From: Acholeplasmataceae bacterium
GTDB lineage: Bacteria > Bacillota_I > Bacilli_A > Acholeplasmatales > Acholeplasmataceae
NCBI GenBank assembly: GCA_007692425.1
Contig: RECG01000020.1
Coordinates: forward strand, 1 to 59,017
Reading direction: 5' to 3'
DNA length: 59,017 bases
In this document: positions 32,099 to 59,017 of the stretch, in pieces
Layout of the letters: each line of letters starts with the position of its first letter
How positions within the stretch are numbered: the first letter of the stretch is position 1
The notes under the pieces: model-generated
Told to the model about the DNA's origin: nothing
Database searches by the model: none
What the model saw: the letters and a program-made list of their open reading frames with translations, nothing else
Made by a program: the position numbers and the translations under genes

Positions 32099-33907
32099 TC
32101 AGCGACTTCGCCAATAAAGCAGTTCCTTGAACAAGTCGAATGTCCATCTGACTTCCTGTTCAACTGCTGAATAGACGCGGTGATGATAAATGGCAGTGTC
32201 CGAATGGGCGGTGTTAAACCCATCACCAAGCGCTCTGACCGCGATGACATGTTGGCCCGGCGGAAGATTGAGCGTTGCCAGATTGAAACGGTTCAAGGAG
32301 AGCGTATAAGTCCGCCCGTCGACCGTAAAGGCATAACTGTCATGCGGATCATCTGTGTCCCATGTCAGAATGCCGGCGGCACTCAAGGCGAAACCGGCAG
32401 GCAATGGCAGTTTCAAAGGGCCCTCGTAGACATAGTCAAAGGTCTCTGACCATGGTCCGTCGCCATGATAAAGGCCATCACCACGGGCCCGTACTTGAAT
32501 GGGATACACACCCGGTTCAGAAATGAGTGACGCCAGATTCAATAGTGTGGACGTCGTAAACCGCTGCTCATGACCGATTTGCACTTCATAGTCTTGGCGA
32601 TCTGCGACAGTCTGCCAGGTGAGCAGACCATTGTTGACAGCAAGCCCCTCGACCATCGGCAACGGTTGTGAGTAATCCGGCAGGGGATGTGGCGTTCGGT
32701 CCACGGGATGGATCCTTACAGCCAGCAACAGGCTGTTGGTGACCTGTCTCGGTGTACCGCTGGGTTGATTGGCGATTGTGAAATCATCGTCGTCACGCAA
32801 AACCATGGTGGTGGAACCCCCGCCATCCAGATTATACGCCAGCACCGCCCCATGAGCGATCATCAAATCGGCGAGATCATAAAGATTGATCCCGTCGGAA
32901 TAACCAGGTTGCCTTCCATCGACGGTAACCATGAAGACACTGTTGTCGGCTTTGACACCAATGGCGGTACGCGGATGGCGGAAGGTCGGATCGATGCCGC
33001 CGATGATGGCAGGCTTTTCACCGTTTTCAACCAAAAGGCCGTAGGTGCCGGCCGCCCAACGGACATCTTCGAAATCACCTGATATCCTGGCTTGGACAAT
33101 GATTTCATCACCAGGCTCGACCAGGTTTTGCAAATAGATGCTGTTCGAGACGACCACCATCTGGCCGGCTGCGACGGTTCTTCTTTCCAAGGCGTTGGCA
33201 ATCGTGACCTCGCCATGCACATAGAGTTTGGGAAAGCCACCCTTGCGTTCAATCACCTCGGTCACATACTTTGATGCCATGGGAGGGAGATCGCCCGAAT
33301 ATTGATCGGTGTACACATAAAGTTCATAGGGATGGCTCACATATGGGACATTGACACCCTTGACGGGCATACGCAAGCGCTCACGGCCGTTGGCATCGGT
33401 GACAATCACCTCAAGCGATTCAAAGTTCGGTTTGCCATGGGCGACGCTTTGGTCGTCACGAAAACCGATGACTGACCTGTTGGCATAACCGATACCTTGG
33501 GAAACGATGTGTCCGTTGCGGATATAGGCTTCCTGCGGCACACCCCATCCTTCGAAGAAATCAGCGTTCACACCACCGATGACCAGATACTCGTCACCGA
33601 AATCCGCCTGGCTTTTCTGGGCATGACGGACCACGGTGGCAGGACGATAACCGGTGCTGGTGTAATCATCACCGGTGATGATTGCAAAGTCATCACTTTG
33701 GAAATCCGCCTCAAGCACATGATACACCTGTCGCACGGTCGTGCTGCCGACCTGGAGCTGGCGTGCGGTGCGGGTATGGGCGGCACCATGAATCATGGTG
33801 GTTTCCGTCTCGATGATTGTCACAGAAGCCCATGTCGGATGGGCCAGGACCATCATGGCCGAGATGGTGATCAGAATGACAACGATGATACGTTTCAGGA
33901 TGTGCAT
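32099..33907 (-). CDS. Secreted NAGPA-domain phosphodiester glycosidase with Fn3-like repeats
   Basis: The 602-residue product has a signal peptide ending near HPTWA, then a NAGPA (phosphodiester glycosidase, PF09992-type) domain of about 300 residues with GGVNADFFEGWGVPQ, AAGTYGLLVENGEKP, RTAIGVKADNSVFMVTVDGRQ and LAYNLDGGGSTTMVL. Mammalian NAGPA removes GlcNAc from GlcNAc-1-P-6-mannose; bacterial members act on phosphodiester-linked sugars in exopolysaccharides or wall polymers. The C-terminal part has two Fn3-like repeats (about 405-490 and 500-580) and a tail ending LFKELLYWRSR. The ATG overlaps the upstream acyltransferase by 13 bases and has AAGGAGG. The substrate is inferred only. Confidence 0.88.
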   Translation of the reverse strand: MHILKRIIVVILITISAMMVLAHPTWASVTIIETETTMIHGAAHTRTARQLQVGSTTVRQVYHVLEADFQSDDFAIITGDDYTSTGYRPATVVRHAQKSQADFGDEYLVIGGVNADFFEGWGVPQEAYIRNGHIVSQGIGYANRSVIGFRDDQSVAHGKPNFESLEVIVTDANGRERLRMPVKGVNVPYVSHPYELYVYTDQYSGDLPPMASKYVTEVIERKGGFPKLYVHGEVTIANALERRTVAAGQMVVVSNSIYLQNLVEPGDEIIVQARISGDFEDVRWAAGTYGLLVENGEKPAIIGGIDPTFRHPRTAIGVKADNSVFMVTVDGRQPGYSDGINLYDLADLMIAHGAVLAYNLDGGGSTTMVLRDDDDFTIANQPSGTPRQVTNSLLLAVRIHPVDRTPHPLPDYSQPLPMVEGLAVNNGLLTWQTVADRQDYEVQIGHEQRFTTSTLLNLASLISEPGVYPIQVRARGDGLYHGDGPWSETFDYVYEGPLKLPLPAGFALSAAGILTWDTDDPHDSYAFTVDGRTYTLSLNRFNLATLNLPPGQHVIAVRALGDGFNTAHSDTAIYHHRVYSAVEQEVRWTFDLFKELLYWRSR

Positions 33908-35193
33908 GTGGTTTCCTCCTTGATCATGTGTGGCAACTTCATGAAAGCTTTCTCGTCACCGGGTGTCACATACGGTCGCGTTCCGAAACGGTCGATATCC
34001 TGAAGGCCGTACAAATATAGACCGGCGTTAATCCGTCCGCCTTGTTTGACAAACGCGATGACATCACGTTCAAGCGAACTGCGCGGTTCATGCTTGTCAA
34101 GGTCAGGCGATGCGTGTTGGAACACGAAGGTAAAAAGACTTTCCTGACCCGGTGTCGCCGGCAGGACATAACCCTGCCTCGCGATGTTGAGGATGTTGCT
34201 CGTCGGCTTACGGATGAACCATGGCAACTGGGGTGAATAGAGCCAGGAGACACACCAGAAGGCCTGGTAGTCATATTCGGGATAATGGGTGTTGAAGAAA
34301 GTCTTGGCGAGGTTGAACGCTTGTTTGATGTCATCAACGCCATAAGCTGATTTCGAGGGAATGTGGAAGTCAATGACAGGGTCGTCTTTCCTGATGACAA
34401 GCTGCCAATGCTTGAGATCAAGGGTCGTGGTCTCTTTTTCTATGGAGCCACAAGGATTGACCCTATGTCCCTTACAGCGCCGCTCATCACATGTCAAGGT
34501 GGTCGTGAAGGCTGGTTGCGAAACACCGTTGATACCATCGAACTGGCCATCGGTCCGGACGGTGACACCGGCTTCCGCGATTGCACACAATGCCTGGTTT
34601 TGACGATGTCGGTAGAGCCGGAAGCGGTCGGTGAAAACATGATGCATGAATTGCAGACAGCCGAGTTTGATCAAACCGAGCGAAGCGAGATACGTGCACC
34701 AGCCAAAGTTTTCGACACCGACCGTCCCATGCTTGTCATGATGCTGCTTGATGTAACCCTTGAGATGTCCAAGGTTGAAATCGGCATGGACGGGATCGAT
34801 GCCTTTTGCACGGTGTGTCTCAAGACTGGCGGGGACCAAGGCCAACAAGGCCATGAGTGCAAAGGCGGATGACTCGACATCACCTTGTTTGAGCAACGGT
34901 GCGCCTTTCACCAGCCAATGCGAGGGATGGGCTACGCCGATGATCACATGGCGTAAGAACTTGATGAGGGCATGGATGGTGGGTTGTCGCAGGATGGCAT
35001 CACGCGCGTCGAGCAACACCCGCCGGTGGCGAGCATCAAGTTCCAGTCGGTCCATGACATCTTCCAAGGCGGCCAATGTCATGAAAGGGGAATCGTCCTG
35101 GATGGACAGATATGATGGGACATGGTCTTCTGCTTTTTTATCGAAACATGATGTTTCAAGACATGAAAGCATGTCATCAAAGAATGCGTTCAC
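33895..35193 (-). CDS. Acyltransferase-domain protein (NAT_N plus GNAT-like C-terminal domain)
   Basis: The 432-residue product resembles the acyltransferase-domain family with an N-terminal helical domain and a GNAT-like C-terminal domain (the PF18082/PF18164 pair as I recall it). Recognisable blocks are DFNLGHLKGYIKQHHDKHGTVG, LGLIKLGCLQFM, FHIPSKSAYGVDDIKQAFNLAKTFFNTHYPEYDYQAFWCVSWLYSPQL and PTSNIL. The biochemical role of the family is unknown. No signal peptide is present. It starts at GTG 35193, 13 bases after a palindromic operator, and is translationally coupled to the NAGPA gene. Possible roles include acyl transfer to an imported amino sugar. Confidence 0.75.
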   Translation of the reverse strand: MNAFFDDMLSCLETSCFDKKAEDHVPSYLSIQDDSPFMTLAALEDVMDRLELDARHRRVLLDARDAILRQPTIHALIKFLRHVIIGVAHPSHWLVKGAPLLKQGDVESSAFALMALLALVPASLETHRAKGIDPVHADFNLGHLKGYIKQHHDKHGTVGVENFGWCTYLASLGLIKLGCLQFMHHVFTDRFRLYRHRQNQALCAIAEAGVTVRTDGQFDGINGVSQPAFTTTLTCDERRCKGHRVNPCGSIEKETTTLDLKHWQLVIRKDDPVIDFHIPSKSAYGVDDIKQAFNLAKTFFNTHYPEYDYQAFWCVSWLYSPQLPWFIRKPTSNILNIARQGYVLPATPGQESLFTFVFQHASPDLDKHEPRSSLERDVIAFVKQGGRINAGLYLYGLQDIDRFGTRPYVTPGDEKAFMKLPHMIKEETTCTS

Positions 35194-35205
35194 CTGGCAC
35201 CTCTA

Positions 35206-35219
35206 ATTGTCTATACAAT
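35206..35219. promoter_or_regulatory. GntR-type operator ahead of the acyltransferase gene
   Basis: ATTGTCTATACAAT is a 14-base site with outer palindrome ATTGT/ACAAT, the cleanest copy of the motif (TTGTATAGACAA on the minus strand). It lies just downstream of the -10, at about +8 to +22, where a bound repressor would block RNA polymerase. Confidence 0.75.
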
Positions 35220-35227
35220 ATACTTTA

Positions 35228-35256
35228 TTTATACCTTTTTTCTGGTCGATTTGCAA
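35228..35256 (-). promoter_or_regulatory. Promoter of the acyltransferase-NAGPA operon
   Basis: TTGCAA (35251-35256) and TATAAA (35228-35233 complement) are 17 bases apart. Confidence 0.7.
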
Positions 35257-35285
35257 GTGATGTCGTCATCCTTTATCATACGATA

Positions 35286-35320
35286 AAGAAAACGGACCAT
35301 GAATGAAGGCCCGTTTTCTT
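35286..35320 (-). terminator. Intrinsic terminator of the gntR-family gene
   Basis: AAGAAAACGGGCC and GGTCCGTTTTCTT form a 13-bp stem with one G-U pair and a nine-base loop, beginning ten bases after the gntR stop. Confidence 0.85.
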
Positions 35321-35329
35321 GTCGTTGAT

Positions 35330-36052
35330 TTAACGTACGGCATGCTGGATGAAGCGGTACTGGTCGGCACGGTAATAGGATTTCACATACTCGAAAGGAT
35401 AACCCCGGTCAAGAAAGGTGTTGCGGGTCATATACAAGACGGGGGCGTGACGTTGGATGTCCAGCAATTCAGCAACGTTTTGATTTGCACTTTTGGCCTC
35501 AACCGTCTGGATGCAGTAACTGATCTTGATGTTGAGTTCGTGCTCGACATAATCATAAAAGGATGATGCCATGATTTTCGGTTCAATGTTCTTGAAAAGC
35601 CTTTTGGGAATGAACAGTTTCTCAAACAGGACAGGAATGCCGTCGCCGTAACGGATGCGCTCAATCAGAAAGACTTCTTCGTTTTTCTTGAGAAACAGCT
35701 TCTCGCTGACTTCATCATCGGCCTTGACGACTTCAAAGGAGATCAGCCGGTTGCTGACCTTGCGGTTCATACGACGCATCTCTTCGGTAAAGCCGAGCAA
35801 ACCCTGGATTTTCTTCTCGATTTTCAAGTTATGGACGAACGTCCCCTTGCCCTTATGTCGATAGAGATAGCCTTCATTGACAAGGTTGTTCAGCGCCTGA
35901 CGTACCGTCATGCGCGAGACCGAATAGATCTCTTTTAGTTCGTTTTCACTGTGAATCATGTCACCATGGTTCAATTCGCCCTTCATGATTTTTTCTTTGA
36001 TGTCGTGTTCGATGACTTGGTAGACGGGGGTTTTCACAATATCACTTCCCAT
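35330..36052 (-). CDS. GntR/HutC-family transcriptional regulator, NagR-like
   Basis: The 240-residue product has an N-terminal winged helix-turn-helix (about 12-75; GDMIHSENELKEIYSVSRMTVRQALNNLVNEGYLYRHKGKGTFV) and a C-terminal UTRA ligand domain (about 95-235; LFLKKNEEVFLIERIRYGDGIPVLFEKLFIP). HutC-type regulators with nagB next door usually sense GlcNAc-6-P or GlcN-6-P (NagR/DasR). The start could be ATG 36052 without a clear ribosome binding site or GTG 36037 with GGGAAG upstream. It is divergent from nagB and its promoter carries the same operator, so it is probably autoregulated. Confidence 0.93.
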   Translation of the reverse strand: MGSDIVKTPVYQVIEHDIKEKIMKGELNHGDMIHSENELKEIYSVSRMTVRQALNNLVNEGYLYRHKGKGTFVHNLKIEKKIQGLLGFTEEMRRMNRKVSNRLISFEVVKADDEVSEKLFLKKNEEVFLIERIRYGDGIPVLFEKLFIPKRLFKNIEPKIMASSFYDYVEHELNIKISYCIQTVEAKSANQNVAELLDIQRHAPVLYMTRNTFLDRGYPFEYVKSYYRADQYRFIQHAVR

Positions 36053-36067
36053 GTATTTATGTAGAAC

Positions 36068-36079
36068 TTGTCTATATTA
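36068..36079. promoter_or_regulatory. GntR-type operator at the gntR promoter
   Basis: TTGTCTATATTA (plus strand) matches the TTGTCTATACAA motif at 10 of 12 positions and overlaps the gntR -10. A second half-site TTGTATAAT overlaps the -35. Confidence 0.6.
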
Positions 36080-36104
36080 TATGCGATTTATAATGATTAT
36101 ACAA
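36076..36104 (-). promoter_or_regulatory. Promoter of the gntR-family gene
   Basis: TTGTAT (36099-36104 complement) and TATAAT (36076-36081) are 17 bases apart. Confidence 0.75.
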
Positions 36105-36161
36105 GTTTATGACAATAAAACATGCCTTTTCTAAAAAGAGCATGGTCAAGACATTTTTTTC

Positions 36162-36190
36162 TTGTATAGATAACTAAAAAGTTGTATAAT
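36162..36190 (+). promoter_or_regulatory. Promoter of nagB with overlapping operator
   Basis: TTGTAT (36162-36167) and TATAAT (36185-36190) are 17 bases apart. TTGTATAGATAA (36162-36173) matches the operator motif TTGTATAGACAA at 11 of 12 positions and covers the -35; a second TTGTATAAT covers the -10. Confidence 0.75.
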
Positions 36191-36228
36191 GGAATTAAGA
36201 TCGATCACGATGAAACGGATGAGATGAT

Positions 36229-36966: not shown

Positions 36967-36987
36967 TGCATTTTTTCCTTCTTTTGC

Positions 36988-37018
36988 AAAAACAGCGGTT
37001 GGCTCAACCGCTGTTTTT
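36988..37018. terminator. Bidirectional terminator between nagB and the GH38 gene
   Basis: AAAAACAGCGGTTG and CAACCGCTGTTTTT form a 14-bp stem around GCT. The GH38 stop codon lies inside the hairpin. Confidence 0.92.
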
Positions 37019-39595
37019 GTGTGTGATTGTCAATGTCATGACCGCTTTTGGCGGTAAGACAATGGTTGTTGTGGCAGGGCGGACAAATCCGCCTCTCATG
37101 TCTGTTTCAGCCACGGAAGTGATGTCGAGGTCGCTTGCCAGCCGGCAAGTCCTTTTTCCTTGTGTGGGGTTGTAAAGCCGGACTTCGATGACATCGGCCT
37201 TGAGATGACGTAGCGATGTCAGGGTGACGGCCTCATCATCGAGGGCGATCAAGGAAGGCCGTGCCGATCCGGCATCACCGGAAACAAACACCGGCGGATA
37301 TCGGAAATATTCGGCGACCCGAAGGCTCGAGATGACATCGCCCGTGACACCGAAGCCATAATCAAAAGCCATTTGACGCAGACATTGCGCCTCTGGTGTC
37401 GGCATCGACGGCCCGGCACCACCACCCCTGCTGGGAATGTCGTCACGGGAGAGGTAGCCGACGCTGCGGACCATGGTCAGATGGACGCTGGTTTGCTTTT
37501 CTTCTGTTTTTGTCTGATATTCCTGCAGGCCGCGGTGCATGATGACCAGGCCGCCTGACTGGTCGGCGGCATGAATGAAGGAAAGGCTGGGATCGACGAC
37601 AACCGGTACTTCTTTGCCTTTTTCTGCCACGAATGATTCCTGGCGTCCCGCCTGTCTTTCCACTAGATCATACGCACTGTCAGAGAAGGTCGTCTCAAGC
37701 AGTCTGTGGGTCGGGAAGACCACGACCAGACGATGATCGCGCGCTTTTTGGTCGACGATGGCTCGTACCCGTGCTTGTCTCGCATCAGCGGTCAATGTCA
37801 CCGTGACATCGACTTTGGTGCTCACTTTTTTTGCCAAGGGGCGCGTCATGGTTTCATCCAAGCCGGCCGGCTGTTCGAGCACGAGTCGGTATGTCATGAT
37901 GCTGATCAATCCGCTTTGCCGGACATCCGGACTGCCTTGAAGACCAGCGATGCTGAGGAGGTCATCGGCTGGTTTGGCATAATTATAGGTATCGCCGGCA
38001 TCCATGGTGGATTGCAGCCGGTTGAGACCTCGATATGTTTGATGGTTGGCTTTGTCTTCAAGCGTCAGCGTGCCGTCTTGCTCAAGTGTGATGCGCACAT
38101 GGGCGTTTTCAATGACCGAGGCCTTCGCTTTGATCATGTCCTGGTGACGACCTTTGACCACGGCAAAACGGGTCAGCCCTGTCGCTTTCAAATGAGCGCT
38201 CTTGAAGGCGACATCAAGTTCATGTCCATGCCTGAAACCTGGAGGCGCATCAAGCGGTGATGCGAAGGCACGTGCTTTTCGCGACCTGATCAAAACGGTC
38301 TCGCAAAGGTTGCCTCGTTCATCTTCCAAGGCAAATCCATCCTGCCATGAGTAAGCGTCATTGAGAAACAATGTCGCCTCGACCACGCCCTCATGAGGAC
38401 GTGGCAAGGGTTGGAACAACATGAAACGACGGTCATCATCATGAATCGGACGACCTGAAGGTTGATAAACTGTCATGGCTTTCCAACCGGCATCCGCCGA
38501 CGTGCCTGTCAACAGGGCGTCTATTTTTTGACGGGCTTTTTGCGCACGCATCTCGTTTTCCTGATGGACCGCATCGATGCTGCAGCCGCAAATGCTGTCA
38601 TGCGGCTGGTTTTGCAAAATGTCTTCCCAAATCGAATCGACATAAGTCAACGGTGCATCTTGACGGCCGAGATAGGCTAATGCCACGAGCGGTTCCGCCA
38701 CCCGTGTCATGACATCCTCAAGCGTCTGGTTGAGCACCTTGAGATAACTGCGTGTCGACCACACATTGGGCAAGATGTAACTGTTGGTGTTTTGACGCAG
38801 TTCGCCTTTGAGCACGGCCAGGTCCTGTCCGACTGTCTTGGCGGCAATGATTTTTGCATAACCGGTAAAGTCGTTGACTTTGACCGGATGGCCGAGGAAT
38901 GTCCTTAAGGCTTGTAGCCGTTCGCCGATGTCATCGGCAACCGGCATGAGATGATCGCCGCCCGCTGTCAGCAACATGTCATCCGTGACGGCTTTCGCTT
39001 TGATGCCTTCAAGATAGGTAGACACCTTTTCCAGATAATCGGGTTCATTGAGGATGTGCTGATAATAACCCGCACTTAAAAAAATCGTCAACAGGCGGCT
39101 GCCATCGGCGCCTTCCCAGGCAAAAGCGTGCTTGTCAAGATCGACACCGCGCCACATCATCGCCTTGTCAATGCCGAAACCCTTGAGGATCTGCGGCATC
39201 TGGCTGACATGGCCGAAGGTGTCGGGCAAATAACCGAACACCTGCGAGCCACCATGTCTTTGACAAGCCTTGTGTCCCAGTTCGAGATTGCGGATGATGC
39301 TTTCACCTTGGACCAGAAATTCGTCCATGGCAATATACCATGGTCCGATGACAAGACGGCCGGAGGCGATCAAGGCCGCCACCCGCTTTTGCCATGCAGA
39401 CCCGGCGACTTCAAGATAATCGTCAAGCGGCAAGGTCTGACCGTCTAAGACAAAACAGGCGATTTCATCCTGTTCAAGCGCCTCGATGATCCGGACCATC
39501 ACCTTCATCAGACGATGACGGTAGGTTTCAAAAGCCTCATACCACTCACGGTCCCAATGGGTGTGAAACACGATATGCAAAGTCGGTTTATCCAT
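37004..39595 (-). CDS. GH38 alpha-mannosidase
   Basis: The 863-residue product has the GH38 zinc and catalytic motifs: HTHWDREWY (His and Asp ligands, residues 9-17), YLPDTFGHVSQMPQIL with the nucleophile Asp (about 103-118), MMWRGVD and GGDHLMP, then the long C-terminal beta-sandwich domains. GH38 enzymes cleave alpha-mannosides from N-glycans or mannosylated oligosaccharides; bacterial homologues such as MngB act inside the cell. There is no signal peptide. ATG 39595 follows AGGAGGGA. It is the last gene of the long operon, nine bases after the FAD oxidoreductase. Confidence 0.95.
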   Translation of the reverse strand: MDKPTLHIVFHTHWDREWYEAFETYRHRLMKVMVRIIEALEQDEIACFVLDGQTLPLDDYLEVAGSAWQKRVAALIASGRLVIGPWYIAMDEFLVQGESIIRNLELGHKACQRHGGSQVFGYLPDTFGHVSQMPQILKGFGIDKAMMWRGVDLDKHAFAWEGADGSRLLTIFLSAGYYQHILNEPDYLEKVSTYLEGIKAKAVTDDMLLTAGGDHLMPVADDIGERLQALRTFLGHPVKVNDFTGYAKIIAAKTVGQDLAVLKGELRQNTNSYILPNVWSTRSYLKVLNQTLEDVMTRVAEPLVALAYLGRQDAPLTYVDSIWEDILQNQPHDSICGCSIDAVHQENEMRAQKARQKIDALLTGTSADAGWKAMTVYQPSGRPIHDDDRRFMLFQPLPRPHEGVVEATLFLNDAYSWQDGFALEDERGNLCETVLIRSRKARAFASPLDAPPGFRHGHELDVAFKSAHLKATGLTRFAVVKGRHQDMIKAKASVIENAHVRITLEQDGTLTLEDKANHQTYRGLNRLQSTMDAGDTYNYAKPADDLLSIAGLQGSPDVRQSGLISIMTYRLVLEQPAGLDETMTRPLAKKVSTKVDVTVTLTADARQARVRAIVDQKARDHRLVVVFPTHRLLETTFSDSAYDLVERQAGRQESFVAEKGKEVPVVVDPSLSFIHAADQSGGLVIMHRGLQEYQTKTEEKQTSVHLTMVRSVGYLSRDDIPSRGGGAGPSMPTPEAQCLRQMAFDYGFGVTGDVISSLRVAEYFRYPPVFVSGDAGSARPSLIALDDEAVTLTSLRHLKADVIEVRLYNPTQGKRTCRLASDLDITSVAETDMRGGFVRPATTTIVLPPKAVMTLTITHKNSG

Positions 39596-39603
39596 AATCC
39601 CTC

Positions 39604-41163
39604 CTAAATGACATGAACCTTGTCGGCCGGCCATGATCGTTCGATACCGGCTTGGTCGAGATGTGCCTGGAAACGGGCCAACCAAGCCGGATCGGCCTGG
39701 ATGACGCGTGGTGACACCTGCCATTCGATGGCTTTGGCGGCGAGATGGCCTGCCACCTCGCCAATGTTCCATTCGACCGGATGAAGTCGGAAACAACCAT
39801 TGGTCAGATGAGTCGTGCCGATGTTTTTACATGCAGGCAACACGTTTTCCTTTTGGACGGGGATAAAGGCGCCAAGCGGAATTTCAAAAGGCCAGCTACG
39901 GGCGAAAAAGAAACGGTTGGTGACGGTTGTCATATGCAGGTCGATGTGATAACAACCAATTCCGACACTATCAAGATGACGTGGCAGATGGTCAATCAGA
40001 TCGGCATTGATGTCGTGCTCGGTGATACGTTTGACAGCCTTGATGCGTCGCGATTCACGGATATAGGGGGCCATGGCAAGGCCATCATCGGTCCCCAGCA
40101 TGTCAGGGCGGAGATGAACGCCTGGATACCCTTTTCCACCATCGGGACGTGGCGCTTCATGCTGCAGCCAGTAAATCAAAGAACGTGTCAGTTCACGGGC
40201 CTGCTCCTTGTGATGGTCATCGCGTGCGGTGCCATAGATGTTGCCGAATATATAGTCGTTCTGGGGCCAGTTGATGAGCGTCACCTCATGATCAAAGACG
40301 CCGGGCTCGAAATCACGGGGATCGATGATGCGCCGATAAGACCAGAGGGGAAAACGTCCGGCACCTTCGTCATCGAACATGCCGAACCGCTTGGTCTTGC
40401 CCGTGCTTGAATCCGGTCCGTACCAACTGAGAACATGGGTGTCGTCACACGGCCATATGGCCGATTTGAAAAAATCGTAAGCGTCCGGTTTCCTGATCGG
40501 TCGTGGATGAAGGGGGGCATAACCGACCGCCGCCACCCATGTGACCGGCTGCATGTCGTCAGGCAAAGCCTGGTCCAATGCGTTCGGCTCACCGGTATCC
40601 GCTTGACTTTCAGCACCCGTGACAAAAGCCGTGCCGGTCAATGGCAACAGCTCACCGGTGTCGGTGGCATCCAGAAAATAAGTGCCGGTCACGGTCAATG
40701 TCTTTTGATCGCCGATTGATGCCAATGTCAGTTCTGACACCTGCTTCTCATCATGACGGGCGCTGACCACGTGATGTTGTCTCAATATCGTCAAGCGACC
40801 TGATTTGACAAAAGGTTCGAGCATGTGTTCAAGCACCTGAAGCATGATGGTCGGCGGTACGGAAAGACGGCTGACCGAAGCGTGACCCGGATTCCAGTGC
40901 GCAAGCCCGTGGACATGGGGCTTGACCGGGTAGCGTGTCTTCATCGTCTGCCTGACGGCATCCCGGAATGCACGATATGTGGCTGTGCAACCAAAAGACT
41001 CGATGAACGGATGCTCATCGGGCGGAACGGCCTGGCTCGTCAGCTGGCCGCCGATCCAGGCGGTCTCTTCGGTCAGCAGGACACGCAGGCCATGCGAGGC
41101 GGCCGCGCGGGCGGCCATCACGCCGCCGATGCTGCCACCAATGATTACGACATCAACATGCAT
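39604..41163 (-). CDS. FAD-dependent oxidoreductase of the glycan locus
   Basis: The 519-residue product begins with a dinucleotide-binding motif VVIIGGSIGGVMAARAAASHG and an acidic end of strand two (LLTEE), and contains FLDATDTGELLPLTG and a C-terminal NIGTTHLTNGCFRLHPVEWNIGEVAGHLA. This is the FAD_oxidored type (PF12831-like), often annotated xanthan lyase-like and frequent in polysaccharide loci. It probably binds FAD non-covalently in the cytoplasm; no signal peptide is seen. Possible roles are oxidation of a sugar hydroxyl before elimination-type glycoside cleavage. ATG 41163 starts one base after the GH84 stop, with GAGGAG upstream. Confidence 0.85.
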   Translation of the reverse strand: MHVDVVIIGGSIGGVMAARAAASHGLRVLLTEETAWIGGQLTSQAVPPDEHPFIESFGCTATYRAFRDAVRQTMKTRYPVKPHVHGLAHWNPGHASVSRLSVPPTIMLQVLEHMLEPFVKSGRLTILRQHHVVSARHDEKQVSELTLASIGDQKTLTVTGTYFLDATDTGELLPLTGTAFVTGAESQADTGEPNALDQALPDDMQPVTWVAAVGYAPLHPRPIRKPDAYDFFKSAIWPCDDTHVLSWYGPDSSTGKTKRFGMFDDEGAGRFPLWSYRRIIDPRDFEPGVFDHEVTLINWPQNDYIFGNIYGTARDDHHKEQARELTRSLIYWLQHEAPRPDGGKGYPGVHLRPDMLGTDDGLAMAPYIRESRRIKAVKRITEHDINADLIDHLPRHLDSVGIGCYHIDLHMTTVTNRFFFARSWPFEIPLGAFIPVQKENVLPACKNIGTTHLTNGCFRLHPVEWNIGEVAGHLAAKAIEWQVSPRVIQADPAWLARFQAHLDQAGIERSWPADKVHVI

Positions 41164-41164
41164 C

Positions 41165-42746: not shown

Positions 42747-43871
42747 TTATCCAATCGGTTTGAACACGGTATTGACCAACACATCCTGGTCGTGTTCGTG
42801 TCCGGGTGATGTCCCCATGAAATGGCGGACAAGATGATTTTGTGTGGCAAACAGGACCACGCCTTGTACACACGTTTGCCTGACGGCTTCGACCTGGGCG
42901 ATGACGTGTTCGACGCCGAGGCCGAGATACCCGGGTGCGAGACCGGCATAGAGTGCACACCTTTCCTGGTTGATCTGGCACATTTGCCGGATTTCAGAGG
43001 CAACGCGGTCGACATCCTGATCATAAGCCATGGGCACGAGAATGTCAATCCAGCCCCGTTTAATCCAGGTCTGCCAGTCCTGGCATTTGACATCAAGTGC
43101 ATGGGCCGGATTACCAAAAACAGCGGTCGAGATGCGAATCCGTTTCCGGTAACGTGTGGTCAATCTTTCGACAAAGCCATTGATCTGACGGATCTTGAAA
43201 CGGTGCCAATCCTGGCGGCAGGCTTTACTTTGGAGTACAAGCACCCGCACATCACCATGATAGCCATATTCAAGTTTGAAACGGTTTTCCGCGACATGGG
43301 TGAAACCGTGGTCATCATGATAATCCGGCATCTCCGTTCGATAAGCCACGGGATAACGGATGTAGTCGAGGTGGAGACTCGCCAATCCTTCAAGGTCGAC
43401 CATGGCGTCATAAAGTCGTTCAAGGTGGTCAAGCACCTGGGTATTGGCAGGGTCAAGAAAGACATAATCAGCTTCGTGTTTTTGTCGGGTGCTACCGTCA
43501 TGATTGACCAGCACCCAATCTTGACGGTCTTTGAGAAAGGGAACGGGGTTGTCTTTGTGATGAATGCCGATAAAGAAATTTTCGACCCAAGCATGAACAT
43601 CAATGCCTGATTTGGCCCCCTCTTCGATGAATGCCTTGAGCAAATGTCGGCCATAAGGACCATAATGACCGACAAAATCGTGTGGCGGCAGCACCGCATC
43701 AGGATGCGGGAAGATCAGACGTCCGCCAAACCACGTTTCGACAAACAACTGGTTCATGTTCAACCGTTTGAGCTCGGCAAGCGTCGCCCTGACCTGGTCA
43801 AGATCGGTTTCATGGGGGCGATGCCAAAAGCCGCGCGCTTCACGCGGAAGGCCTGCAAGGTGGTCAGTCAC
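42747..43871 (-). CDS. GHL10-type glycoside hydrolase-like protein, cytoplasmic paralogue
   Basis: The 374-residue product is a single GHL10 (DUF187/YngK-like) barrel with RGFWHRPHETDLDQVRATL, NQLFVETWFGGRLIF, DVHAWVENFF, SLHLDYIRYPV, ISTAVFGNP and ILVPMAYDQD. It is clearly paralogous to residues about 125-490 of the next upstream gene (same motifs in the same order) but has no signal peptide and no C-terminal domains. GTG 43871 has GGTGG upstream and overlaps the neighbour by eight bases. GHL10 proteins act on bacterial-type or host glycans; the exact bond is unknown. Confidence 0.85.
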   Translation of the reverse strand: MTDHLAGLPREARGFWHRPHETDLDQVRATLAELKRLNMNQLFVETWFGGRLIFPHPDAVLPPHDFVGHYGPYGRHLLKAFIEEGAKSGIDVHAWVENFFIGIHHKDNPVPFLKDRQDWVLVNHDGSTRQKHEADYVFLDPANTQVLDHLERLYDAMVDLEGLASLHLDYIRYPVAYRTEMPDYHDDHGFTHVAENRFKLEYGYHGDVRVLVLQSKACRQDWHRFKIRQINGFVERLTTRYRKRIRISTAVFGNPAHALDVKCQDWQTWIKRGWIDILVPMAYDQDVDRVASEIRQMCQINQERCALYAGLAPGYLGLGVEHVIAQVEAVRQTCVQGVVLFATQNHLVRHFMGTSPGHEHDQDVLVNTVFKPIG

Positions 43872-48060: not shown

Positions 48061-50604
48061 CTATCTTAATGTACCAAAATACTGTTGGTACTGGTTGGCA
48101 TAATCGAGAAACTCATAAGCATTGACAATCTGGTAGACACCCGGATGACTGGCCTCAAGCATCAGATGGATCTTATAAAAATCAGTCGGCGAGAGGCTGA
48201 TGACACCTTGGATGCCAGGTTCGCTGCGATACATGCTCAAACTGTGATCAGGCGAACCGACAAAACCATAATAAGCGACAATGAAGCGGTTGTTGTCATT
48301 GACGATACGATGGTAGATCTGACGGGCCATGCTGTCACGCGTCCCTGTCAGATGTTGAAATGTCTGGGTGACACCGTCTTCCGAAAACAAGGCGAATCCA
48401 CCACGTTCGACATGGGCGTCCACTTCATGGTGATCGATGATGACCAGGTCGTTGACCGTCAACATGATGCGGACATGTTCATCAAGCGGCGTTGACTTGT
48501 CGATACTGACCTTGACTTGTCGGCCTGACATATTGAAGATTCGTGAATCAATCGGCTCCTCGGCACCCCCACGCAAACGGTCCAGGTGAACCCGGCCGTC
48601 CTCGAAATAGATCCTGAAGCCATCACCGGCATCATTGGTGAACAAGTCGAACCCGGTCTTGGCCGTCGTGTCGGCAAGCGTGGTTTCGATGAACCAGTAA
48701 TCGCTTTCCGTCGTCTGGATGCCCCGTTCGGTCCCCAGCATGGTCAAGGCACTGAAGCTGACATGGCCGGAAGCGGCCCTTCTTGGATAAAAGTTGGTCC
48801 AACGGTTATAGACCGGCACGCCGCCCCATGTTTCAACCCGGATCGACGTGTTGCCGTCATGGATGCGGGTAAACGCACCGAAAACCGCGGAACGCATGAG
48901 ATAATTGCCAATCAAATCTTTCTCGGCAAAGGCGTCGGTCGGTGTATAACGGTCATTGTACATGTCGATGATGTGCTGGTCGGCCAGTGCCAGATAATAC
49001 GCATTGGCCGCGGCAATGCTGTTTCTTGATTCAAGCGGCATCTGTGAGTCAATATCTACGAAACCGATGGCTGAACCACCGCCCGAGTAAAAGTAATCAT
49101 TGGGTGTGGCGGTCCGGTAGAAATAATCAAAGACAAACGGGAAAGTCTCGCTCATGTCGGCAATCAGTCCCCAATTAATCGGCACCTTGCCCCGGTGCGG
49201 ATCAAGCCAGGCACCGTGCTGGAAGGCGACACCGACCTTGATGGTGTCGCTTTCAGATGCAAAAAAGGTCACGTACTTCTTGTCGGTGTCGTAAGTCGAC
49301 ACGTATTCAGCCTTTTGTGTGAAGACCGTATCCGGGTCGATTGGCAGCCGGCTGAGCAATGACAGGTTGCCATTGCCGACAACATTGATGACGCCACCGT
49401 ATTTGGAAATGAAGTCCAGGGCTGAACTTTCATGGTCGACCCAGCCGTAGACCGAAAAATGGGTGTTGTTTGCCTGGAACCAGGCATTGATATCCTCGCT
49501 GAGGGCGCGGTCGCGCTCGCTCTGCGTCATCTTAAGATCGAAAAACATCATCTGCTCGCTCGCGGCATAGTCCATGACCTCGGAGGTCAGCGACATGTAG
49601 GCCGTGCGATTGAAGACGGTGCGAAAACGGTTGAAGACGTGCTCATAAACCCCATAGGCGTCTGTGATACCCTCCTGCTGCAAATAGCTGGTGATATCAC
49701 CAGACAAGGTGTGACCGGCTACTTCGAATGTTTCCAAGAAGGGCAGGCCGGTCTCCGCCTCGAGCACTGTGTGCAAGCCGAAAGGCAACGGTGCAGCATC
49801 AACCAATGATGCCATCATCAAAGCGAAATCAGATTCCGCCGACACCCATTGGTTATAACTCTTCAAATTGTCTTTAAAAGCAATGATGCCGTTGAAATGG
49901 TCTTTGAAGGTATGCAGGACGCCTTCCAGACCGAAAATTTCTATGAGGTCGTATCCGGCAGCTTCAATGATCTGCAACCAAGTGTCGTCACTATGCCTGA
50001 AAAATGGGTTTCCGCCGGTCAGCGTCAACAACCGTGGCTGTGCACGGTTGATGATGCCTTGCATCGCCCGGAGTGACGTATGGCCGTCATATCGGCCCGG
50101 CACGCTATTGTAATGGATGTAATAAATGGCATGGTCGGGATCGAAGATGCGCGGATAGAGGTCTGTCGGCCTTTCGATCATGACTTCGATCTTGCGGTTG
50201 CGGATCCTGGCGGCAAAGATGTCTGCGTTGTCAAAAGGGATGAACTGCCCGTCTTGCATGTTGCCCATCACGAGATACACGTAAGCGGGATCGATGGCAA
50301 TGGGCATCTCGGCATCAAGGCTGATGACCTGCAGGCCATCAGGTAACGTGCTTTCCGCCGCAAACAGATCCATCAGACGGATCCCGGCGTAAACCGTGCT
50401 CAGCACAGGGGAGTGATCGACCGTCAGACTACGCAAGGTCAGTCCGGCAAGGCTGTCAACATCATGGATCTCCAGGCCTGCGGTGCCATGCACGCGAAAA
50501 ACGAATCCTTCTTCTGGTGTTGGTTGTTCGTTGTCATCACGTGAACAGGCATATAAGAAGCCTGCCATCAACACGATGATGATGATCAGGATGCGTTTGC
50601 TCAT
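48061..50604 (-). CDS. GxGYxYP-like lipoprotein with concanavalin-type C-terminal domain
   Basis: The 847-residue product has a lipobox YAC (Cys 20) followed by an Asp/Glu linker. Residues about 35-125 look like a small domain (GIRLMDLFAAES, VYLVMGNMQDGQFIPF) reminiscent of molybdopterin-type binding folds. The middle (about 150-560) resembles the GxGYxYP family found in polysaccharide loci, with NVVGNGNLSLLSRLP and the variant motif GGGSAIGFVD in place of GxGYxYP. The region about 600-770 looks like a LamG/DUF1080-type carbohydrate-binding sandwich (WFIETTLAD, FRIYFEDGRVHLDRLRG). The function is not established; a glycosidase or binding role is inferred from context. Confidence 0.7.
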   Translation of the reverse strand: MSKRILIIIIVLMAGFLYACSRDDNEQPTPEEGFVFRVHGTAGLEIHDVDSLAGLTLRSLTVDHSPVLSTVYAGIRLMDLFAAESTLPDGLQVISLDAEMPIAIDPAYVYLVMGNMQDGQFIPFDNADIFAARIRNRKIEVMIERPTDLYPRIFDPDHAIYYIHYNSVPGRYDGHTSLRAMQGIINRAQPRLLTLTGGNPFFRHSDDTWLQIIEAAGYDLIEIFGLEGVLHTFKDHFNGIIAFKDNLKSYNQWVSAESDFALMMASLVDAAPLPFGLHTVLEAETGLPFLETFEVAGHTLSGDITSYLQQEGITDAYGVYEHVFNRFRTVFNRTAYMSLTSEVMDYAASEQMMFFDLKMTQSERDRALSEDINAWFQANNTHFSVYGWVDHESSALDFISKYGGVINVVGNGNLSLLSRLPIDPDTVFTQKAEYVSTYDTDKKYVTFFASESDTIKVGVAFQHGAWLDPHRGKVPINWGLIADMSETFPFVFDYFYRTATPNDYFYSGGGSAIGFVDIDSQMPLESRNSIAAANAYYLALADQHIIDMYNDRYTPTDAFAEKDLIGNYLMRSAVFGAFTRIHDGNTSIRVETWGGVPVYNRWTNFYPRRAASGHVSFSALTMLGTERGIQTTESDYWFIETTLADTTAKTGFDLFTNDAGDGFRIYFEDGRVHLDRLRGGAEEPIDSRIFNMSGRQVKVSIDKSTPLDEHVRIMLTVNDLVIIDHHEVDAHVERGGFALFSEDGVTQTFQHLTGTRDSMARQIYHRIVNDNNRFIVAYYGFVGSPDHSLSMYRSEPGIQGVISLSPTDFYKIHLMLEASHPGVYQIVNAYEFLDYANQYQQYFGTLR

Positions 50605-51710
50605 GCCGATACTCCTTTCAAAGGTTTATCAATCTCAAAACCATCCTCGTCATGACGGATGTCAAAACCGGTTTTCTCAAAAAAGCCGAGACTTTGACCG
50701 AACACACGGGGCAATCGGTTGAAATAACCGCGCGTTGAGCCGATGACCAGTTTGCTTGCATGTTGTGTCAAGGCGTTGTCCGAAAGGGCCTCGATCATCC
50801 GACGTCCGTAACCGCGACGGCGATACCCTTTTTCAACAAGCAGCAGTTGAATACTGAACCGGTCTTCTTCCCTGACCGTCAACAAGCATCCGACCGGTTC
50901 TTCCTTGCCATCGAGCAAGACCAGGGAGAAACGGGGATCGGCATGTGCCGGATCAAGCGATGTGCGGACAAATGTCTCATAATCGATCGGATAGACATCT
51001 TCCATCGCTTCTTGCCACAGCGACCACAAGACTTCCGGTCGCGGGTAACTGTTCAAGGTCCGGCAGGTGACCTGCTCATCGGCGAATACCACGAACAGAC
51101 CCAACAGCTTTTTGCGTGCCAGCAAGAGATTGACAAAGGCCGGCAGGCTTAATGACAGGAAGGGGGCGACCGTGACCAGACGGATCATGACAACACCGTA
51201 GAAAAAGACGGTGTTGAGGGCAATCAAGAGTGTCGCCAATGGCATGCCCAAAGCCATCACCAACGCAAAACGCAGGTGTTCGACATTCTTGAAACGCGGA
51301 AAGGTGACGAAACTGATCGGCAGATAGGCGGTCATCAGAAAGGCACCGATGGCCAGAAAACCGACCACGACCAGACCGATCCAATGAAAGGTGGTCTCAA
51401 GATCGCCAAGGTAGAAAAACCAACTCAGGCCGAGCACGGCCCAGATCAACACCACGGCGGCACCAAGCAGGTTCGCTTTGACAAAACAGGTGCGGAAGGT
51501 GGTGACAAATGTTTTAAACAACGGCAGGTCGTCTTTGTCCAAAAGTCGCTTGATCATGGCATAGACCGTCATCAGGGCCGGAAAGAACCCGAAGACGACC
51601 AAGCCTGCCAAGGTGGCGATCAAGGCCAGGACATTGATGACGACAAGCTGGTAGATCCACTCCATCAACCGGCTGAACTTCGAATGATGCTTTTCCATGT
51701 ACTTGTCCAT
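50601..51710 (-). CDS. DUF624 (YesL-like) membrane protein fused to a GNAT domain
   Basis: The 369-residue product has an N-terminal DUF624 domain (about 1-205) with about five hydrophobic segments and the usual start ...FSRLMEWIYQLVVINVLALIATL, and a C-terminal GNAT domain (about 215-369) with the acetyl-CoA motif EKGYRRRGYGRRMIEALSD and VFGQSLGFFEKTGFDI. DUF624 proteins accompany sugar ABC permeases; their role is unknown. The GNAT domain would face the cytoplasm. The two parts form one uninterrupted frame. It overlaps the GxGYxYP gene by four bases and the permease stop by one base. Confidence 0.85.
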   Translation of the reverse strand: MDKYMEKHHSKFSRLMEWIYQLVVINVLALIATLAGLVVFGFFPALMTVYAMIKRLLDKDDLPLFKTFVTTFRTCFVKANLLGAAVVLIWAVLGLSWFFYLGDLETTFHWIGLVVVGFLAIGAFLMTAYLPISFVTFPRFKNVEHLRFALVMALGMPLATLLIALNTVFFYGVVMIRLVTVAPFLSLSLPAFVNLLLARKKLLGLFVVFADEQVTCRTLNSYPRPEVLWSLWQEAMEDVYPIDYETFVRTSLDPAHADPRFSLVLLDGKEEPVGCLLTVREEDRFSIQLLLVEKGYRRRGYGRRMIEALSDNALTQHASKLVIGSTRGYFNRLPRVFGQSLGFFEKTGFDIRHDEDGFEIDKPLKGVSA

Positions 51711-52726
51711 CAGCCGACGATCCCGACGCGCTCGACGCTTTCCACGAAGAGCCTTTGGACAAACAGATAACCGACCAGGAGCGGAAAGAGCATCAAGAGG
51801 GCGGCCGTGTTGGCGATCGTGCCGACGATCAACGGATTGCGGGCCATGCCTTCGGCCACCGTCTGGTCGATGCCGAGTCTATATAAGATGTAGGTCAGTC
51901 GCGGTGCGATCTCGGTGATGTTGAGCGACAACAAATCTAAAAACTGGGTGCTGATCAACAATTGTGAATAAAAGACGTCATTCCATTGCCAGACAAATGC
52001 GAACAGCATGACGGTCACGATGGCTGGTTTCGCGTTAGGCAGCATGACCTGCCAGAATGTGCGGACGATGCCGCATCCGTCGATCAAGGCTGCTTCTTCA
52101 AGTTCCTTGGGCAGGTTCCTGAACACCTGGGTGAAAATGAAGATGAAGATTCCGGCCTTGATGCCCATGCCTGTGAAAGCGAGGATGAACAAGGGCCAGA
52201 AGGTGCTGGTCAGGCCCAGGACATTGAAAAGCATGAACAAGGGCATGGCAATGGTCTGCGGTGGCACGACGATCGTGAACACCACGAAAATGAAGAGGAC
52301 GGTGATGCCCTTGAAACGGAGACGGGCAAACGCATAACCGGCCAGTGATGTCGAGAAGACCGTGATCAGCATGACACCCGTTGACATGATGAAGGTGTTA
52401 CGCAAGGCGGAGAAATAGTTGATGGCGTTGGCAGCGATATTGATCGTATCAAAGGAGATGCTACGTGGGACCCAGATGACAAGCGGGTCATTGAGGTCAC
52501 GCAGATTGCTGATGCTGGCGACGATCATCTGCAAAATCGGATAAATGACGACGAAACACAAACCGAATATGATGAATGAACGGATGATCGTAATCGCGCC
52601 TGTACGCGTTTTGGAAACCATTTTGTTTTTAAAGGCCCGTGACTTCATGGTCGCATACATGGTCGTCATCTTGGCACGTAAACGGGCGAGCATCGATGCG
52701 CCACGTGTCTTAACGGTCTTCATCAT
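51710..52726 (-). CDS. Sugar ABC transporter permease, MalG type
   Basis: The product (338 residues from ATG 52726) has six membrane segments and the EAA loop EEAALIDGCGIVRTFWQVMLPNAKPA (about 218-243), typical for CUT1 inner-membrane permeases. It follows its MalF-type partner with a 17-base overlap; AAGGGGG precedes the ATG. It carries an unusually long basic N-terminus (about 45 residues) before the first membrane segment. Partners are the permease at 52710-53690, an ATPase outside the window and probably a solute-binding protein such as that at 30304. Confidence 0.93.
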   Translation of the reverse strand: MMKTVKTRGASMLARLRAKMTTMYATMKSRAFKNKMVSKTRTGAITIIRSFIIFGLCFVVIYPILQMIVASISNLRDLNDPLVIWVPRSISFDTINIAANAINYFSALRNTFIMSTGVMLITVFSTSLAGYAFARLRFKGITVLFIFVVFTIVVPPQTIAMPLFMLFNVLGLTSTFWPLFILAFTGMGIKAGIFIFIFTQVFRNLPKELEEAALIDGCGIVRTFWQVMLPNAKPAIVTVMLFAFVWQWNDVFYSQLLISTQFLDLLSLNITEIAPRLTYILYRLGIDQTVAEGMARNPLIVGTIANTAALLMLFPLLVGYLFVQRLFVESVERVGIVG

Positions 52727-53690
52727 AATAGAACGCCCCCTTGTTCGCAAGATAAACAAAGATGCCTAGAAAAGCCATGACAGCGACAAAATACATCCAT
52801 GCCATCGCCGAGGACACCCCGAACTGCTGGTTGTCCTTGGTTTGGATGATCAGACGGGTCACCGGACTGCGCAGGAAAGAGTCGACGATGGTGAAGACAC
52901 CGACCGTGATGACGTGCGGTGACACCATCGGAATGGTGATTTTCCAAAATGATTCATAAGGTGTCGCCCCTTCGACCTTGGCAGCCTCATACAAATGCGA
53001 CGGAATCGACTGCAACCCGGCCAGGAAGATGAGAATCTGCACACCGGCCAGGGAGATGACCCTGAAGATGGTATTGACGATCTGGGCCAAAAAGTCCACG
53101 ATGGCTTCAGGAAAACCGGACTCGATCAAAAAGCTGTTCAGTTCAAGATTTCCGAAGACACCCAGACGGTCACCTTGCATCAATGCTTGGAGGTCAACGG
53201 CCTGGCTGAGGGCGATGTTGACCGCCTCGGAGGCCAGGATGACCGGCAGGAAGAAAATCGCCCGGGCCAGGACATTACCTTTGAAGCGGGTGTTGAGCAT
53301 GGTGGCGATCAACAAGCTGAAAATGATGATGACCGGCAAATTGACAGCCGCTTCGATCATGGCATTGACAAGCACGCGCCGGTATTCGGTATGAATGTTC
53401 CAGGCGAAATGGAAGTTATGCCAACCGACAAACTCGTGCAAGATGCCCAGTTTGAAGAAAGTCGTGCCGGTGATGCCCCGGTTTTGGATATAGTTGGCCA
53501 CGCCCTCAGGTGTGGAGGGACCCAGGAAATAGACATTAGAGAAACTGTAAATGACCGAATCGACCATCGTGTAGGCGAAAATGCCGACGAACCCGATGAT
53601 CCAAGGCAGCAAAAAGAGGACACCGAAGACAATCTTCTGCTGTCTGTAGGTCAGCGGCTTGCGTTTTTTAAGAACATTCGCATGTGTCAT
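52710..53690 (-). CDS. Sugar ABC transporter permease, MalF type
   Basis: The 326-residue product has six membrane segments and the EAA loop YEAAKVEGATPYESFWKITIPMVSPH (about 232-257). The long periplasm-side segment between helices one and two (about 55-105) is characteristic. The ATG at 53690 has AGGAGG eight bases upstream; GTG 53696 is a weaker alternative. It pairs with the MalG-type gene downstream. Confidence 0.93.
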   Translation of the reverse strand: MTHANVLKKRKPLTYRQQKIVFGVLFLLPWIIGFVGIFAYTMVDSVIYSFSNVYFLGPSTPEGVANYIQNRGITGTTFFKLGILHEFVGWHNFHFAWNIHTEYRRVLVNAMIEAAVNLPVIIIFSLLIATMLNTRFKGNVLARAIFFLPVILASEAVNIALSQAVDLQALMQGDRLGVFGNLELNSFLIESGFPEAIVDFLAQIVNTIFRVISLAGVQILIFLAGLQSIPSHLYEAAKVEGATPYESFWKITIPMVSPHVITVGVFTIVDSFLRSPVTRLIIQTKDNQQFGVSSAMAWMYFVAVMAFLGIFVYLANKGAFYYDEDR

Positions 53691-53702
53691 GGGCACCGCC
53701 TC

Positions 53703-56273: not shown

Positions 56274-56286
56274 GTCTGCCTCCTTC

Positions 56287-58472: not shown

Positions 58473-58479
58473 GGGGTCA

Positions 58480-59017
58480 CTACTCCTTGATGCCCGAATG
58501 GGCCATGGTTTCGATGATGCTGCTCTGCGAGATAACGAAGACGGTGACCGGCACCATCATCATGAAGAGCGAGACTGCCGCGACGACGCCTGTACGGGCG
58601 ATGCCTCCGCCGACAATCTGATTCAGGGCGAAACTAAGCGGTTTGAGTGCTTCATTATAGATATATTGACCACCGGTCGCACCCCACAAGGTCTGAAAAG
58701 ACAAGATGATCAACGTCAGCCACGCAGGTTTGACCAGCGGCATGACAATCATCCAAAAAATCTTGTATTCAGAAGCGCCGTCCATGTAGGCCGATTCGAT
58801 ATAAGTCGTCGGAATCTGTTCCATGAAGTTGCGCATCAGATAAAGACCGAGGCTGAATGCGAAAGCCGGCAGGATGATGGCCCAAAGGGTATCAATCATG
58901 TTGAGCTGCGTCATGACGATATAAGCCGGAATCGCGGTAACGGCCGTGTTGAACATGAGCGAGTAGACAATGATACGCGACAACATGCGCGACCCTGGAA
59001 ATTTGTGTTTGGCCAAC
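58480..59017 (-). CDS. Sugar ABC transporter permease, MalG type, partial
   Basis: The frame runs to the window edge, so the N-terminus is missing. The visible 178 residues hold four membrane segments and the EAA loop IESAYMDGASEYKIFWMIVMPLVKPA (about 74-99 of the visible part), and start with AKHKFPGS, which follows the third helix in MalG proteins. It is a second MalG-type permease, distinct from the one at 51710-52726, so a second permease pair is likely, with its MalF partner just outside the window. GGAGTAGTGACC precedes the NHL gene directly downstream. Confidence 0.92.
   Translation of the reverse strand, partial: LAKHKFPGSRMLSRIIVYSLMFNTAVTAIPAYIVMTQLNMIDTLWAIILPAFAFSLGLYLMRNFMEQIPTTYIESAYMDGASEYKIFWMIVMPLVKPAWLTLIILSFQTLWGATGGQYIYNEALKPLSFALNQIVGGGIARTGVVAAVSLFMMMVPVTVFVISQSSIIETMAHSGIKE

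Follow-up and report, generated by a model that had tools for sequence, protein, structure and literature searches.

Contig RECG01000020.1 of an Acholeplasmataceae bacterium (assembly GCA_007692425.1) was analyzed over its full 59,017 nucleotides, hereafter the window. From position 30,304 onward it carries a cluster of genes, almost all on the minus strand, that we assign at roughly even odds (about 0.5) to a NagR-controlled polysaccharide-utilization locus of a wall-less, Acholeplasma-like bacterium, the food being a bacterial wall-type glycan that contains N-acetylmannosamine (ManNAc) and N-acetylglucosamine (GlcNAc). Candidate targets would be the linkage unit of wall teichoic acids or a ManNAc/GlcNAc secondary wall polymer. 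In kind this is a Gram-positive-type polysaccharide-utilization locus, set apart by its gene combination, its importer and its probable target. Wall material is suggested by the amino-sugar end products, by ManNAc without sialic acid, by the kinship of the importer and of the phosphodiester glycosidase NAGPA to peptidoglycan loci, by the GHL10 domain of Cwp19, and by the chemistry of wall polymers. The evidence comprises gene content and order, operators, predicted locations, co-occurrence and the kinship of the importer to a peptidoglycan importer, all read from the sequence.

Gene content and extent of the locus

A first-pass annotation had proposed a system for an amino-sugar glycan between positions 32,099 and 59,017. 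The families that it named all exceed their Pfam gathering scores (GH38, FAD_oxidored and GxGYxYP_C included), which are the basis of our family calls, with NCBIfam cut-offs in addition for NanE and NagB. Its coordinates are correct, and the amino-sugar assignment is supported by NanE, NagA, NagB and a NagR-like regulator. It had overlooked the importer cassette, the solute-binding protein at 30304-31962, the continuation of the locus on a second contig (C4), and the GntR/UTRA regulator with its operators. The starts of GH38, FADox and GH84 (39595, 41163 and 42733) were set by start codons with ribosome sites, and locations were predicted from hydropathy and lipoboxes only. The features are as follows.

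30304..31962, minus: SBP_bac_8 solute-binding lipoprotein of an ATP-binding cassette (ABC) importer; Pfam; lipobox LIAC; 72% identical to the SURF_22 counterpart at the same position
32004..32015: NagR/dre-like operator 5' of the solute-binding protein gene; TTATATAGACAA, 1 mismatch to TTGTMTAGACAA
32099..33907, minus: NAGPA (DUF2233) phosphodiester glycosidase, predicted secreted; PF09992, 116.6 bits; HPRT, VDGR and NLDGGGSTT motifs; signal peptide
33895..35193, minus: NAT_N + GNAT_C acyltransferase-like protein, predicted cytoplasmic; PF18082, PF18164; frame overlaps NAGPA, one operon
35207..35218: operator of the GNAT_C-NAGPA operon; TTGTATAGACAA, exact match
35330..36052, minus: GntR/UTRA (HutC family) regulator, NagR-like; PF00392, PF07702; 73-78% identical proteins adjoin the same gene set elsewhere
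36068..36079: weak operator 5' of the regulator gene; 2 mismatches
36162..36173: operator 5' of nagB; TTGTATAGATAA
36229..36966, plus: NagB, glucosamine-6-phosphate deaminase; TIGR00502, 267 bits (cut-off 237)
37004..39595, minus: GH38 α-mannosidase-like protein, predicted cytoplasmic; PF01074; HTHWDREW and PDTFGH motifs
39604..41163, minus: FAD-dependent oxidoreductase (FADox); PF12831, 301 bits
41165..42733, minus: GH84 β-N-acetylglucosaminidase, predicted cytoplasmic; PF07555, 330 bits; Asp-Asp pair in LLLDDIDY
42747..43910, minus: GHL10b, TIM-barrel glycosidase-like, without signal peptide; PF02638, 66 bits; start unsure
43864..46320, minus: GHL10a, predicted secreted, C-terminal repeats in common with NAGPA; PF02638, 95 bits; Cwp19 5OQ2, E = 7e-10
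46308..47396, minus: SGNH esterase, predicted cytoplasmic; GxDLY + Lipase_GDSL_3
47380..48051, minus: NanE, ManNAc-6-phosphate 2-epimerase; PF04131, 209 bits; PRK01130.1, 300 bits (cut-off 189)
48061..50604, minus: GxGYxYP lipoprotein, putative glycosidase; PF14323; lipobox LYAC
50601..51710, minus: fusion of DUF624 membrane protein and GNAT domain; PF04854, PF00583
51710..52726, minus: ABC permease D; PF00528; tree
52710..53696, minus: ABC permease C; PF00528
53703..56273, minus: DUF5696, membrane-anchored cassette component; PF18952, 520 bits
56287..56976, minus: Yip1-domain membrane protein, cassette component; PF04893
56973..58472, minus: NHL/TPR cassette component with signal peptide and C-terminal membrane helix; PF01436
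58480..59016, minus: ABC permease B, C-terminal 178 residues; N-terminal 116 residues at C4:1-350
C4:1346-4237: 963-residue binding protein
C4:7213-8778: DUF4127

Contig C24, which the window covers from end to end, belongs to a 1.45 Mb genome (97.8% complete, 29 contigs). The first ∼30,300 positions of the window hold mainly housekeeping genes (LepA, PNPase, MutS2, HisS, AspS, RelA), and the locus runs past its far end, which breaks permease B. C4 opens, on the matching strand, with the 116 N-terminal residues that permease B lacks on C24; joined, the two pieces give an open frame that resembles the paralogue on contig C10. Since the ends of C24 and C4 have no sequence overlap, we infer their junction from the split permease gene and from operators common to both. 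On C4, the locus further includes permease A, a 963-residue binding protein, a 605-residue Ig-domain lipoprotein, DUF4127 (499 bits) and NagA. In Acholeplasma sp. SURF_22, the order is kept gene for gene, from the 963-residue binding protein through the solute-binding protein.

The two-stage layout proposed in the first-pass annotation agrees with the predicted signal and lipoprotein peptides. NAGPA, GHL10a, GxGYxYP, the binding proteins, NHL/TPR and DUF5696 (the last through an N-terminal membrane anchor) are predicted to be extracellular or anchored, and GHL10b, GH84, GH38, SGNH, FADox, NanE, NagB and GNAT_C to be cytoplasmic.

Proposed pathway

The α-GlcNAc-1-phosphate bond is of the type that is cut by animal NAGPA. 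In the pathway that we propose, secreted GHL10a, the GxGYxYP lipoprotein and NAGPA would cleave the polymer outside the cell, with NAGPA acting on α-GlcNAc-1-phosphate bonds. The four-permease ABC cassette, with two binding proteins, NHL/TPR, Yip1 and DUF5696, would take up the fragments, which GHL10b, GH84, GH38, the SGNH esterase, FADox and DUF4127 would reduce to monosaccharides in the cytoplasm. These would be phosphorylated and then carried by NanE, NagA and NagB to fructose-6-phosphate, and GlcNAc-6-phosphate (GlcNAc-6-P) or glucosamine-6-phosphate (GlcN-6-P) would lift repression by NagR. The substrate, the bond cut by NAGPA and the parts played by FADox, DUF4127, GH38 and GxGYxYP are putative assignments. 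The kinase and the ABC ATPase of the pathway presumably lie outside the locus; no ABC ATPase was noticed in the scanned parts of the locus, so a shared one is assumed. No published pathway with this gene set was found, as the first-pass annotation had supposed.

Wall teichoic acids and the wall polymer of Bacillus anthracis are linked to N-acetylmuramic acid (MurNAc) via β-ManNAc-(1-4)-α-GlcNAc-1-P (PMC7831098), and the wall polymer of Paenibacillus alvei is a GlcNAc/ManNAc repeat (PMC6030368). The phosphodiester-bearing glycan of the first-pass annotation may survive as GlcNAc-1-P-MurNAc, the bond between wall glycopolymer and peptidoglycan; its phosphomannosyl form fared poorly, as set out below. 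It is conceivable, though on the unlikely side, that the locus is the first known to be dedicated to catabolism of the ManNAc-GlcNAc-1-phosphate linkage (or the ManNAc/GlcNAc repeat) of bacterial wall glycopolymers; NAGPA would then free the polymer from peptidoglycan by cutting GlcNAc-1-P-MurNAc, DUF4127 and FADox would form a new, partly non-hydrolytic route of ManNAc removal that feeds NanE, and the same core would serve wall-polymer recycling in cultured Bacillus and Paenibacillus. To the best of our knowledge, no enzyme is established as releasing wall glycopolymers from peptidoglycan by cleavage of the GlcNAc-1-phosphate bond, and a literature search on the linkage unit, ManNAc and catabolism gave nothing usable. 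The locus names candidates for the recovery of linkage-unit ManNAc, namely NAGPA, DUF4127, FADox and NanE without NanA, and the presence of the core in culturable Bacillus and Paenibacillus makes it genetically testable.

Kinship of the importer and NAGPA to peptidoglycan loci

Positions 50601-59016 form an ABC importer cassette that consists of DUF624-GNAT, permeases, DUF5696, Yip1, NHL/TPR and the cut permease. The genome holds four copies, each with a binding protein, a ∼970-residue binding protein, permeases A and B, NHL/TPR, Yip1 (fused in some copies), DUF5696, and permeases C and D. The three other copies adjoin NamZ-GH3-kinase-MurQ (C10), GH16 (C14), and a PF10091 glycoamylase with GH3 (C16). 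At all 20 further DUF5696 loci of the family, DUF5696 keeps the same cassette position and the order varies only slightly; the enzymes there fall into the same three classes, except at SURF_22 (NanE set) and L169 (no recognized enzyme). Trees of permeases D and B place the GH16 and glycoamylase cassettes apart from the NanE and NamZ-MurQ cassettes with support of 100/100, and a quick tree of DUF5696 gives the same split; the peptidoglycan set forms one group. By these trees, the window importer is kin to the peptidoglycan-sugar importer, and the copies of this recurring four-permease cassette sort by glycan class. A literature search on DUF5696 and the cassette gave no paper. We note that the DUF624-GNAT fusion (50601-51710) has a counterpart of equal length in SURF_22, whereas other clusters have a shorter stand-alone DUF624. 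At C16:25000-44999 (L018), where two glycoamylase-like proteins (PF10091) and a GH3 enzyme are its neighbors, the cassette perhaps serves β-1,2-glucan.

NAGPA scores 116.6 bits against a PF09992 cut-off of 25, and its HPRT, VDGR and NLDGGGSTT motifs align with the solved members 3OHG and 6OZD. The domain and the conserved HPRT, VDGR and NLDGGGS motifs are those of the human and animal NAGPA uncovering enzyme and of bacterial DUF2233 (3OHG); the window protein is nearer to 3OHG than to animal NAGPA, and its context is without phosphomannose. Within the family, 17 of the 21 NAGPA genes lie 35 kb or less from a DUF5696 cassette, whereas the expectation for any DUF5696 is 2.5. Wherever the enzymes of those cassettes were read, the cassette was of the NamZ-MurQ or NanE kind. 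NAGPA thereby adjoins both peptidoglycan loci (NamZ, NagZ-like GH3, MurQ, AnmK) and NanE loci. At the G039 locus, the order is NAGPA, RpiR, AnmK, GH4-like, cytoplasmic GHL10, secreted GHL10, beta-lactamase-like, amidase, cassette, NamZ, GH3, kinase, MurQ and NagB, where AnmK, GH4 and beta-lactamase were named by sequence inspection, without a profile search. The window follows the same plan, except that NanE and GH84 stand where G039 has its MurNAc genes. It is thus like the MurNAc/peptidoglycan salvage loci of the family (NamZ-NagZ-MurQ type) in its importer cassette, its pair of secreted and cytoplasmic GHL10 proteins, NAGPA and NagB, but has NanE, GH84, GH38, FADox and DUF4127 where those have NamZ, GH3, MurQ, AnmK and an amidase. 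Neither NamZ nor MurQ was found among the scanned window genes or in C4:1-15000; both are at C10.

NAGPA and GHL10a (window 32099-32700 and 43864-44500) have in common a C-terminal repeat region, 28% identical over 214 residues (E = 4e-12), with a short tail at the end. A third copy lies at C28:43451-43969, and the repeat may act as a signal for sorting or surface attachment. The loci at C10:64000-83999 (L016) and L178 encode peptidoglycan degradation, with GHL10, amidase, NamZ, NagZ-like GH3 and MurQ. As the lineage itself is apparently wall-less, this suggests that the walls of other bacteria serve it as food.

Co-occurrence across genomes

Neighborhoods of GHL10a homologues and of FADox were compared, the latter at 80 named loci from GTDB genomes. 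The recurring set is NanE, DUF4127, FADox, permeases, a ROK kinase and an RpiR or GntR regulator; GHL10, GH84 or GH20, GH38, NAGPA and SGNH are variable members. NanE lies in the fetched flanks of 40/80 FADox loci and DUF4127 in those of 43/80, only about half, which indicates that some FADox relatives live elsewhere. Of 296 genomes in the class, 50 have NanE, 26 have DUF4127 and 20 have both, where 4.4 would be expected (p = 1e-12, an optimistic value that ignores relatedness). The two genes are no more than 10 kb apart in 15 of these 20 genomes (0.4 expected) and no more than 35 kb apart in 19; the 20th is the present genome, in which they are split over C24 and C4. FADox usually accompanies the pair, and NAGPA, GHL10 and GH84 or GH20 often do. 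For DUF4127 and NAGPA, 22 genomes have both, against 9.0 expected (p = 5e-8, with the same optimism). As the co-occurrence extends over several families, descent from a common ancestor is by itself an unlikely cause. The gene set therefore recurs in Bacilli, whereas a lack of co-occurrence elsewhere would, by the first-pass annotation, have refuted its proposal.

Regulation

The NagR/DasR dre-like palindrome TTGTMTAGACAA is found at six sites in the locus, four in the window and two on C4, at 4277 before the gene for the 963-residue binding protein and at 6303 before that for the 605-residue lipoprotein. Allowing up to one mismatch, the whole genome has three sites outside the locus (one on C3, two on C20), and the fetched parts of the three other importer cassettes have none. 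Comparable operators lie 5' of cluster genes in RIFOXYA12, SURF_22, G003, G025, G126, G116 and G165. The NagR (YvoA) regulon of Bacillus subtilis is like the locus in its GntR/HutC regulator, its dre-like palindromes and its control of nagA and nagB, and the effectors there are GlcNAc-6-P and GlcN-6-P (PMC4333415); by analogy, the window regulator may respond to one or the other. It differs in that control here spans a whole locus for glycan import and degradation, with no PTS (phosphotransferase system) transporter gene in the set.

Enzymes of the locus

Both GHL10 proteins exceed the PF02638 cut-off of 27.9 (95 and 66 bits). GHL10a matches Cwp19 5OQ2 with E = 7e-10, and GHL10b has no PDB match. 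GHL10 is the peptidoglycan-cutting domain of Cwp19, a lytic transglycosylase of Clostridioides difficile (PMC6016235). The window proteins share this domain but are divergent, and one copy is predicted to be cytoplasmic. GH84 is nearest to O-GlcNAcase/BT_4395-type enzymes. GH38 is an optional member that is missing from most related clusters, although several Bacillus-related genomes have it in these operons; it scores below the NCBIfam cut-off for the mannosylglycerate hydrolase MngB (NF007331, 463.8 bits, cut-off 1138).

Of the enzymes in the set, FADox is the most conserved, with relatives 47-64% identical and a mean column identity of 63% over 35 rows, and DUF4127 keeps more than 40 residues invariant across 30 rows. 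That both are conserved together with NanE suggests a common step, which we would guess to act on ManNAc-containing oligosaccharides. Structure models reached a pLDDT (predicted local distance difference test) of 94.7 for DUF4127 and 94.0 for FADox. Comparison with the PDB gave neither protein a close solved relative: the matches listed for DUF4127 have template modeling (TM) scores of 0.30 or less, so that the model is possibly of an unseen fold, and FADox matched a generic FAD fold, with TM under 0.5. A literature search on DUF4127 gave nothing usable.

Alternative substrates

Several observations weigh against a wall glycan. The cultured Bacillus and Paenibacillus in which the NanE-DUF4127-FADox core occurs are themselves walled, and there the core could serve turnover rather than scavenging. 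NAGPA is a broad family, present in 6 of 14 control genomes, and the GHL10 proteins are distant from Cwp19. No enzyme of known β-ManNAc-ase activity was identified, and no canonical ROK kinase scored convincingly in the genome; a BadF-type kinase sits in the C10 locus. The GHL10 fold is also used by GH156 sialidases (PMC6811678), an assignment that we set aside for the window proteins as the active center differs between GH156 and Cwp19 (PMC6811678). The parts that a wall glycan explains worst are GH38 and GxGYxYP, which α-mannose would suit better than ManNAc; GxGYxYP genes are found in Bacteroides α-mannan loci (PMC4071793). These two features, with the presence of GH38 in the same operons of several Bacillus-related genomes, would fit a ManNAc/GlcNAc capsule or exopolysaccharide, possibly with α-mannose and unrelated to the wall linkage unit, in which NAGPA would cut phosphodiester-linked repeats or caps. 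Any ManNAc/GlcNAc polymer suits NanE, NagA, NagB and GH84, but the kinship of the importer and the linkage of NAGPA to peptidoglycan loci indicate wall material, and we regard a capsule as rather unlikely.

We consider improbable a phosphomannosyl or N-glycan-like substrate, which the first-pass annotation had put forward and in which NAGPA would take GlcNAc off GlcNAc-1-P-mannose, with GH38 and GH84 trimming the remainder. All three enzymes are present and apparently intact, and GH84 is of the O-GlcNAcase kind; however, NanE is a core member that such a glycan would not need, GH38 is optional, and NAGPA travels with peptidoglycan genes. Moreover, the closest named relatives are metagenome-assembled genomes titled Tenericutes RIFOXYA12 and Acholeplasma sp. 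SURF_22, which we take to be of subsurface origin. The annotation had also read NanE as pointing to ManNAc or sialic acid, and of these only ManNAc stood. In sialic acid catabolism by nanA-nanE-nanK, NanE usually catalyzes the middle step, and it is what the locus has in common with that route. However, a single-family search for the dihydrodipicolinate synthase (DHDPS) superfamily (PF00701) found no match in the genome, of which ∼2% may be missing, and matches in 14/14 controls. The genome would accordingly have neither NanA nor DapA, and its ManNAc would not be NanA-derived; no NanA-like gene was recognized beside NanE in related clusters. Scavenging of sialic acid or free ManNAc is thus very improbable, and the sialic acid route was rejected. 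That the neighborhood is a chance gathering of unrelated carbohydrate genes, as might be said of a set first seen at a single locus, has a negligible probability and is refuted by the conserved order in SURF_22, the common operators and the significant co-occurrence in the 296 genomes. For the wall glycan, a search of the same kind found no penicillin-binding protein (PBP) transpeptidase domain in the genome, so such a glycan would be food and not self. The organism is probably wall-less, given this result, relatives named Acholeplasma or Tenericutes, and the small genomes of the family.

As a minor observation, a ∼320-residue protein with no Pfam match stands beside NanE/FADox/DUF4127 or NAGPA in several genomes (L140:12089-13069, L141:15989-16906, L055:8849-9808).

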